This document shows positions 42,642-44,246 of a stretch of DNA of 50,867 nt, in pieces. The stretch covers positions 289-51,155 of the forward strand of contig WHTT01000045.1 in NCBI GenBank assembly GCA_009377605.1, given 5' to 3'. Within the stretch, counting starts at the first letter, position 1. Every line of letters starts with the position of its first letter. Under the pieces are notes generated by a model. The model ran no database searches, had not been told where the DNA came from, and saw only the letters and a program-made list of their open reading frames with translations. The stretch is from Luteitalea sp. (GTDB lineage: Bacteria; Acidobacteriota; Vicinamibacteria; Vicinamibacterales; Vicinamibacteraceae). The position numbers were made by a program, and so were the translations under genes.

Positions 42642-42646
42642 AACGG

Positions 42647-42808
42647 TTCTTAGTCCTTGGTTCTTAGTCCTTGGTTCCTGGTGCGTCGGCGGACGATAGG
42701 GGTCTCTGTCGGGATGGCGGGGCGATTGCGCGAATCCGGAATCAGAACAGCAGGAGCCAGGCACTGAGCACAGCGGACCAAGGACCAAGAACCAAGAACC
42801 AAGGACCA
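42647..42808. repeat. inverted pair of heptamer arrays between topA and trmFO
   Basis: Left: TTCTTAG, TCCTTGG, TTCTTAG, TCCTTGG, TTCCTGG (42647-42681). Right: CCAAGGA, CCAAGAA, CCAAGAA, CCAAGGA, CCA (42778-42808). The last AAGGA lies seven bases before the trmFO ATG and can act as its ribosome site. Confidence 0.92.
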
Positions 42809-42812
42809 GTCG

Positions 42813-44246
42813 ATGATTCGCATTGTCGGGGGCGGTTTGGCGGGATGCGAAGCGGCGTGGCAGGCGGCATCGCGCGGTGTGCCGGTCACGTTGTACGAGA
42901 TGCGCCCTGCGAGGCCGACCCGCGTTCACAAGACGGGCGAGCTTGCCGAGCTCGTGTGCAGCAACTCGTTCCGCGGCGACAAGCTGGACAACGCCGTCGG
43001 CCTGTTGAAAGAGGAGATGCGACGGCTCGGCTCGCTCATCATGCGCTGCGCCGATGCCAGCCGCGTACCCGCCGGCGCCGCTCTCGCCGTGGACCGTGAG
43101 CGGTTCTCGCGCGCCGTGACGGAAGCGGTCACGAGCCATCCTGGCATCGCGATCGAGCGATCTGAGTGCGCCGGGATTCCTGAGCCGCGTGACGGGTCGC
43201 CGGTCATCCTCGCGACTGGTCCACTCACGTCGGACTCGCTGTCCGAGGCGATACGCACCTTCGTTGGCGCTGATCACCTCTATTTCTACGACGCGATCAG
43301 CCCGATTGTCTTGGCCGACACGATCCGCAACGACAAGGTGTTCCGCGCGTCTCGCTGGGGACGAGACTCTCCTGATTCACCAGTACGTAGCGCGGGCCTT
43401 CGCCTCGCCGAAGGCGCGGCTTCGGCCGCGCCAAAGGCGGGCGAAGAAACAGCGCGCGCCTGTAGCGTCGAAGCGGCCGACGGTGATTACCTGAACTGTC
43501 CGCTGGATGCGGAGGAATACGCCCGCTTCTATGACGCGCTGATCCACGCGGAGTCTGCCACGGTGCACGACTTCGACAAGGAACGCTTCTTCGAGGGCTG
43601 TCTCCCAATCGAGGTGATGGCGCATCGCGGCTACCATACCCTGCGATTCGGCCCGATGAAGCCCGTTGGCCTGGTCGACCCACGCACGGAGGCACAGCCC
43701 TACGCCGTGGTGCAACTCCGCCAGGACAACCTGGCCGGCGATCACTACAGCCTCGTTGGCTTCCAAACGCAGCTCAAGTGGGGCGAGCAAGCGCGTGTGC
43801 TGCGGCTGATTCCAGGGCTCGAGGAGGCGGAGTTCGTGCGCTTTGGCATGGTGCACCGCAACACGTACATCAACGCGCCAACCGTGCTGCGCGAGACATG
43901 GCAAACAGACGCGCGCGCAGACCTCTTGTTCGCGGGACAGGTCTCCGGTGTCGAAGGGTACGTGGAATCGGCCGCATCCGGCCTGATTGCTGGGATCAAT
44001 GCCGCGCGCCTCGCGCAAGGGGACGATCCGCTGGCACCGCCCCGAACGACGGCGATCGGCGCGCTCGGCTATTACGTGTCACACGCCGACGCTTCGCGCT
44101 ATCAACCCACGAACATCACGTTCGGGATTATCGCTCCGCTGGATCGGAAACTGCGTGGCCGCCAGGCCAAGAAGCTCGCCCTGGCCGAGCGTGCGCTGAG
44201 CGATCTTGCGTCATGGATGGAGCCGGTGAGCGTCGCGCACGTCTAG
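42813..44246 (+). CDS. trmFO: methylenetetrahydrofolate-tRNA-(uracil-5)-methyltransferase TrmFO, with in-frame insertion
   Basis: Makes ribothymidine 54 in tRNA using folate and FAD. FAD motif GGGLAGCEAAWQAA at the N-terminus, ELVCSNSFR, DYLNCPLDAEEY and GQVSGVEGYVESAASG are typical. At 477 residues it is about 40 longer than usual: residues ~187-222 (from GRDSPDSPV to CSVEAAD) interrupt the normally continuous ASRYG..DYLNCP region. The inserted DNA is REP-like and starts with a GTAGCG foot. As the frame is kept the protein may still work, but the insertion is close to a conserved region. Confidence 0.93.
   Translation: MIRIVGGGLAGCEAAWQAASRGVPVTLYEMRPARPTRVHKTGELAELVCSNSFRGDKLDNAVGLLKEEMRRLGSLIMRCADASRVPAGAALAVDRERFSRAVTEAVTSHPGIAIERSECAGIPEPRDGSPVILATGPLTSDSLSEAIRTFVGADHLYFYDAISPIVLADTIRNDKVFRASRWGRDSPDSPVRSAGLRLAEGAASAAPKAGEETARACSVEAADGDYLNCPLDAEEYARFYDALIHAESATVHDFDKERFFEGCLPIEVMAHRGYHTLRFGPMKPVGLVDPRTEAQPYAVVQLRQDNLAGDHYSLVGFQTQLKWGEQARVLRLIPGLEEAEFVRFGMVHRNTYINAPTVLRETWQTDARADLLFAGQVSGVEGYVESAASGLIAGINAARLAQGDDPLAPPRTTAIGALGYYVSHADASRYQPTNITFGIIAPLDRKLRGRQAKKLALAERALSDLASWMEPVSVAHV
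43387..43420 (+). repeat. REP element inside the trmFO coding sequence
   Basis: GTAGCGCGGGCCTTCGCC followed by a complementary GAAGGCGCGGC; a second stem GGCGCGGC/GCCGCGCC overlaps it, and CTGTAGCG recurs at 43460. About 105 bp of non-TrmFO sequence surround it. Confidence 0.85.

Follow-up and report, generated by a model that had tools for sequence, protein, structure and literature searches.

In-frame repeat-derived DNA in a hypervariable TrmFO loop of Luteitalea, a probable landing site for mobile palindromes across the order

How does an enzyme that modifies tRNA come to carry, between two of its motifs, a stretch of protein that appears to be encoded by a mobile repeat? In the window (the whole stretch of DNA analyzed here, 50,867 nucleotides), a first-pass annotation had proposed that REP-type DNA lies in frame within trmFO and adds about 36 residues between the ASR motif and DYLNCP. 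The identity of the gene is clear. Its product (Table 1) scores 635 bits against NF003739, the NCBIfam TrmFO equivalog (cut-off, 262), and 602 against TIGR00137 (cut-off, 429), and both catalytic-cysteine positions, residues 49 and 263, are intact; a C stands at each of them in all 147 TrmFO rows aligned. We take residue 226 of the Bacillus subtilis enzyme to correspond to residue 223 of the Thermus enzyme. The catalytic cysteines of B. subtilis TrmFO are reported to be Cys53 and Cys226 (PMC4081110), and Cys51 is a catalytic cysteine in Thermus TrmFO (PMC5954106; here and below, a PMC number stands for excerpts of the paper concerned). Judged from its sequence, the window TrmFO is therefore probably an active enzyme. 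Could the insertion nonetheless be an artefact of assembly or binning, in which repeats were collapsed or misjoined within the gene? The assembly of the window's own genome, G000, does consist of 382 contigs, but the trmFO reading frame is open and the gene complete, and the single-contig genome G002 has a long, 72-aa loop holding a tagged REP of which it carries further copies; we find such an artefact scarcely credible. Directly upstream of trmFO, between topA and trmFO, lies a repeat of a different type, a 40-nt inverted repeat (42645-42684 and 42768-42807, 80% complementary) that is partly made of the 14-nt tandem unit GGTTCTTAGTCCTT.

In the window TrmFO, 42 residues separate ASRW from DYLNCP. 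The same stretch was compared in 66 more distant homologues (L075-L141 minus L107), whose best-segment identity is at most 57% and nearly all of which bear the names of other phyla or classes, with one called "Vicinamibacteria bacterium"; L107, at 69% identity, falls in with the order and was left out. In this set the stretch has 4 to 8 residues in the 55 sequences read by script and 5 or 6 in the other 11, which were read by eye because the script's pattern missed the motif; in three TrmFOs that belong to the same class but to other orders, the linker has 5 residues. The window enzyme thus has some 35 to 38 residues extra, in agreement with the earlier estimate, and the alignment shows that the segment is not conserved in the distant TrmFOs. 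As to whether the insertion might be a surface loop, a point that the first-pass annotation had raised, an AlphaFold model with 39 TrmFOs as input has a mean pLDDT of 83.9 and one long low stretch, residues 184-222, where pLDDT is below 50; the loop is accordingly predicted to be disordered. The phmmer alignment to Thermus TrmFO (3g5q) breaks at the same place, with residue 185 opposite residue 183 of the chain and residue 224 opposite residue 184. Because the whole model superposes poorly on 3g5q (rmsd, 13), a fold search was not used to place the loop in three dimensions, and its exposure is argued from the low pLDDT together with the alignment gap. From this we posit a loop that is tolerated and probably exposed. 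A Cys-containing motif, CGxD, stands ahead of DYLNCP in 64 of the 144 loops of the order (e.g., at 43453-43484 in the window), and some Cys is present in 85 of the 144.

What, then, is the inserted DNA? Compared with its own genome by blastn, the stretch 43371-43480 gives short repeat-like matches, and counts across genomes assign two parts of it to dispersed elements, here called REP A and REP B. The 14-base foot of REP A, GTACGTAGCGCGGG (43383-43396), contains the GTAGCG that the first-pass annotation had placed at the foot of a hairpin; it has 6 copies in its own genome, the trmFO copy included, 18 in the sister species, and none in the 38 other relatives among the 40 genomes searched. The reversed foot, used as a control, is absent from the own and sister genomes and has one match in each of two others. 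Most of the other REP A copies are GTACGTAGCGCGGGGCCTT(C/T)AGGCCCCGCG or near it, and intact copies elsewhere have the form GTAG-CGCGGGGCC-TT(C/T)A-GGCCCCGCG. REP B, counted as the pattern GGCGCGGCTTNNGCCGCGCC with two free loop bases, has 5 copies in its own genome (again with that in trmFO), 74 in the sister species, and one in each of 2 of the 38 other relatives; its reversed control gives 0 in the own and sister genomes and 1 in each of two other genomes. Both are thus dispersed short elements, and the nested inverted repeats expected from the first-pass description are present, with the half of REP A joined to REP B by one of them. In the sister species, too, some REP A copies (L265, L274, and L276) run into a second hairpin. 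What had been described as a single clean REP is, however, a composite of half of REP A and the REP B hairpin, in which the provable repeat-derived DNA comprises 43383-43401 and 43413-43432, about residues 191-197 and 201-207.

The trmFO copy lacks the combination of tag and perfect stem by which a REP is strictly defined (a GT[AG]G tag 0 to 2 nt before a perfect stem of at least 7, with a loop of 2 to 5 nt; PMC6006769), and it is therefore better called REP-derived than a whole REP. Its hairpins alone would not prove a repeat, since the longest perfect arm in the window loop is 8 bp, a length equalled in 155 of 2,600 control windows; it is the genome-wide copies that give the proof. The 3' end of the insert had been placed near CTGTAGCG. 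That string is present, but it is ruled out as an end mark because it encodes part of A-C-S-V, matching the A-C-G-x-D stretch of other loops, and it occurs at chance frequency (2 occurrences in the window versus 1.24 expected). Among the five other REP A copies of the window's genome, no ORF of at least 120 aa runs across those at L264 and L266, and at L262, L268, and L272 ORFs are present with the repeat within no Pfam match; the ORF at L268 is that of an ABC transporter, with REP A ahead of the domain.

Table 1. Features of trmFO and its insert, in positions of the window
Feature	Position	Strand	Basis or remark
trmFO, 477 aa, FAD/folate-dependent tRNA m5U54 methyltransferase	42813..44246	+	ORF; NCBIfam NF003739, TIGR00137; 3g5q relative
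Codon of Cys49, intact	42957..42959	+	Aligned to residue 51 of Thermus TrmFO (3g5q)
Hypervariable loop, residues 183-224, between ASRW and DYLNCP	43359..43484	+	Alignment; pLDDT <50 at residues 184-222
Genus-specific REP A, 5' half: GTACGTAGCGCGGG followed by CCTTC (one G fewer than consensus)	43383..43401	+	14-base foot counts
Imperfect nested hairpin joining REP A half to REP B	43393..43418	+	Inverted repeat I2
REP B hairpin GGCGCGGCTTCGGCCGCGCC	43413..43432	+	Pattern GGCGCGGCTTNNGCCGCGCC counts
CTGTAGCG, host codons of A-C-(G/S)-V stretch	43460..43467	+	Alignment; CGxD in 64/144 loops; chance level
Codon of Cys263, intact	43599..43601	+	Aligned to residue 223 of Thermus chain (3g5q)
VRSAGLRLAEGAASAAPK			Predicted peptide stretch of trmFO insert

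Is the window exceptional, or does the loop behave in this way throughout the order? Of 193 genomes of the class, 154 have a trmFO match with an E value of 1e-100 or lower. Of the 149 loci that were fetched (some class genomes with a trmFO match are not among them), L226 and L256 had no readable loop, which left 147, 144 of them from the order. Loop length in these 144 genes ranges from 6 to 72 residues, and even between the window and the sister species (84% identity) the loop differs, at nearly the same length (42 and 40 residues, respectively). In many of the long loops no mobile element is proven. The trmFO loops of L163, L043, L041, and L152 (the last seen as protein) resemble short tandem repeats more than palindromes, another means by which the loop is filled. 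Might the loop palindromes be under selection, for example as RNA hairpins that tune the translation of trmFO or as a functional element of the protein? The 110-base insert does fold stably as RNA (z of -2.8, with 2 of 200 shuffles equally stable), and an earlier study of intragenic REPs found many REP-tagged genes in DNA synthesis and repair and speculated on altered activity (PMC3733652). Distant species, however, have no loop sequence in common, 8 of the 144 loops of the order have at most 8 residues, and the loop is predicted to be disordered, so that selection of this kind seems to us very improbable.

Long palindromes are also some 30 times as frequent in the loops of the order as in trmFO outside the loop. 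By length, perfect arms of at least 12 bp number 6 in 12.1 kb of loop and 3 in the 190 kb of trmFO that lie outside it; of the neighboring genes, topA (107 genes, 216 kb) has 3 and xerC (139 genes, 130 kb) has 1. When the 130 loops of at least 45 nt were set against same-length windows of the same genes and against shuffles, perfect inverted-repeat arms of at least 15 bp were found in 5 of 130 loops and in 0 of 2,600 windows and 0 of 2,600 shuffles (Fisher 2e-7, a value that, like the one given below, is a guide only because mismatched pairs and control windows reuse the same loci and genes). The five longest loop arms measure 28, 27, 25, 20, and 15 bp and are all of different sequence; at a threshold of 12 bp the counts become 6 loops, 1 control window, and 3 shuffles. 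REPs with the GT[AG]G tag, strictly defined as above, occur in 7 of 129 loops (again of at least 45 nt) versus 8 of 6,450 windows; as sites, there are 9 in the 12.1 kb of loop, 5 in the 190 kb of remaining trmFO, and 3 in the 216 kb of topA, and xerC also has tagged REP-like sites (6 in 130 kb). In one relative, xerC (L188) carries an in-frame perfect palindrome with 15-bp arms.

Could all of this be an ordinary disordered loop of low complexity, whose GC-rich codons (for Ala, Gly, Arg, and Glu) drifted and were expanded by slippage and whose likeness to REPs is compositional? The 8-bp perfect arms of the window loop are short enough to fit such an account, and L163, L043, and L041 resemble plain tandem arrays. 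It would also fit that a general blastn of all loops against 1.69 Mb of pooled DNA did no better with loops than with controls (a match in 56 of 132 loops and 531 of 1,320 control windows, without separation), but short GC-rich matches swamp that search, and palindrome arms, tagged REPs, and whole-genome copies were therefore used instead. On those measures long perfect palindromes and tagged REPs concentrate in the loop, the 14-base foot is confined to this genus among the 40 genomes while its reversed control is absent from the own and sister genomes, and in other genomes the same elements stand on both sides of transposases (see below). Already weakened by the whole-genome copy counts, the low-complexity account is, in our judgment, improbable.

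Do the loop palindromes of other species, like that of the window, recur elsewhere in the genomes that carry them? With five loop palindromes joined into one query, there were at least 82 matches in G038, 87 in G025, 27 in G007, 17 in G141, and 11 in G035, all of them lower bounds (at most 40 candidates were scored per genome) and counted on both strands, so that the number of places is about half; the same query gave 0 matches in G000 and G001. Not all 11 matches of G035 could be traced, and copies beside its RAYT genes were also relied on. A further query, in which eight loop pieces were joined, found additional copies in G075, G079, G154, G002, and G096. Among the matches listed, the L146 element of G072 had no second copy in its genome, and G082 and G149 had few or unattributable matches and were left out of the dispersed count. 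Of 162 genomes of the order, 46 have the tagged REP GTRGNGTCCGGCTTNAGCCGGAC, one of them in as many as 357 copies, and the reversed control of this REP gives 0 in all 162; the REP lies within the loops of G095 (56 genome copies) and G096 (73 genome copies), and G097, with 91 genome copies, has a closely related hairpin in its loop. The loop element is thus dispersed elsewhere in 12 of the 16 genomes tested, the window's included, or in 13 if G097 is admitted through its related hairpin, although neither figure is an order-wide rate, because the genomes were picked for repetitive-looking loops. The first-pass annotation had considered an insertion of this kind rare; these counts do not bear that out, and in-frame REPs had already been reported in 2013 (PMC3733652).

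Does trmFO stand alone as a target? Around the copies of G025 and G038, 20 regions each were fetched, which held 27 and 22 copies, respectively, besides trmFO. A copy was counted as in-gene when a single Pfam match enclosed it or when two matches in one ORF lay on either side of it, and the in-gene counts are lower bounds because, of 68 repeat-and-ORF combinations, 22 spanning ORFs were Pfam-scanned (5 of these 22 had no match: L319, L324, L327 +, L339, and L346). At least 10 of the 27 copies in G025 are in frame within genes, namely, those for an NAD epimerase, DnaE, UvrC, a DEAD helicase with an MZB domain, a glycosyltransferase 9, an amine oxidase (twice), an amidohydrolase, LpxK, and homoserine dehydrogenase, and the palindrome probably lies in MutS2 and at a second LpxK site as well. 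In G038, 3 of 22 copies are in genes (for a GTPase, an ABC transporter, and 2-oxoglutarate dehydrogenase E1), with a further one probably in Obg. Different genes read the G025 element in two frames, as MSSEAIS..EIASELI and as NELGGDF..NRLRAHF, and given this, we speculate that such elements may be adapted to coding DNA.

Two of these core genes were followed across species of one genus, where different palindromes stand in frame at the same site. At one inter-domain site of DnaE (L375-L380), 5 of 6 congeneric species, G025 included, have a perfect palindrome with arms of 12 to 28 bp and of differing sequence, and at one site of UvrC (L387-L392), arms of at least 11 are found in 4 of the 5 readable species sites (L391 was unreadable, and G121 was left out); both sets were measured without a control set and with spacers of up to 40. 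trmFO is therefore one of several recurrent sites. Within a genome the occupants of these sites can be related: the trmFO, DnaE, and UvrC loops of G025 are of one family, and by eye so are the trmFO (L253) and UvrC (L389) loops of G119.

What might move these palindromes? Y1_Tnp (PF01797) is found in 17 of the 20 genomes examined, the window's included. At 6 of 20 Y1 loci (in G025, G038, G007, G141, G035, and G079) the genome's own loop sequence lies within 600 bp on both sides of the RAYT gene, versus 3 of 240 mismatched genome pairs, which all draw on one set of 20 loci and 13 loops and are not independent (Fisher 7e-6). The clearest unit is that of G025, in which a gene for a 223-aa Y1 protein with NHFH (L359, 2043-2714) lies between two copies of the genome's trmFO palindrome (1962-2009 and 2700-2756); the ORF that adjoins it is presumably Rho. 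The window's genome has two Y1_Tnp matches, one with an internal stop, and at L368, the one of the two that was examined, the RAYT is not flanked by loop sequence.

We propose, and hold to be quite likely, that the window's insert is a decayed composite of two mobile palindromes of its own genome, that it landed in a tolerant, disordered loop of TrmFO which serves as a landing site across the order, and that it was mobilized by RAYT-type Y1 transposases. In this model, RAYT-type Y1 (HUH) transposases would move short palindromes around these genomes, and a palindrome that enters coding DNA would survive only if its length is divisible by three and it brings in no stop, a flexible linker being the preferred place. 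The TrmFO insert would have been retained because the frame was kept and the catalytic core left untouched. We infer that a RAYT did the moving and that the insertion in trmFO was neutral. Counting against this model are the features of the insert itself, which falls short of a strict REP, has perfect arms of 8 bp, and matches half of REP A, as well as the unflanked RAYT at L368. One may go further and ask whether the order's coding palindromes are mobile and have a RAYT that can be identified, and whether the TrmFO, DnaE, and UvrC loops are conserved landing pads, each kept from species to species while palindromes of different families replace one another in it, so that core enzymes would be continually re-tagged by whichever selfish element is current; this is possible but, on balance, unlikely.

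With the model of a tolerant landing site, the trmFO loop would amount to a natural, replicated insertion experiment, in which unrelated mobile palindromes have entered the same loop of an RNA-modifying enzyme across an order. Selfish DNA could thereby supply new peptide sequence to core proteins, apparently without functional loss. The tie between coding palindromes and candidate transposases also offers concrete loci for testing the target choice of RAYTs and the tolerance of their targets.

How does this compare with known systems? The palindromic elements of Rickettsia, reportedly described by Ogata in 2000 and 2002, are the classic example, coding palindromes for which we know of no mover. 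Their mode of operation, an in-frame palindrome in unrelated housekeeping genes, is seen in the relatives G025 and G038, whereas in the window's genome it is seen in trmFO alone. Like the elements described here, those of Rickettsia are protein-coding and lie in frame in unrelated genes, but they are about 150 bp long (PMC10969869), whereas here we find repeat-bearing stretches of about 37 to 96 bp, genomes of about 3 to 8 Mb, and a candidate Y1 transposase. RAYT/TIRYT units (REPtrons), among which an Acidobacteria TIRYT group has been described, consist of a Y1 tyrosine transposase with terminal repeats (PMC3733652), and our loci likewise pair a Y1 transposase that has palindromes or inverted repeats on either side with copies dispersed in the genome. 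Most known REPs lie between genes, and RepRanger finds that REPs seldom overlap protein-coding regions (PMC12306157); here, in contrast, in-frame copies also lie in core genes of two sampled genomes. A close precedent is that of the intragenic GTAG/CGTC REPs, short palindromes that are likewise read in frame inside conserved genes, among them dnaE2, uvrA/uvrB, and tRNA pseudouridine synthases (Di Nocera et al. 2013, PMC3733652). The word trmFO is absent from the main text of that paper, and in our literature search we recognized no account of the trmFO loop. The same-site case that it describes, at about the same site of recB in two Xanthomonas, involves two species, whereas here one loop is occupied across an order by many unrelated families, and in six genomes the family found in the loop flanks a RAYT as well. 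In-frame REPs were thus already known; what is new is the order-wide recurrence at the same site and its link to candidate transposases.
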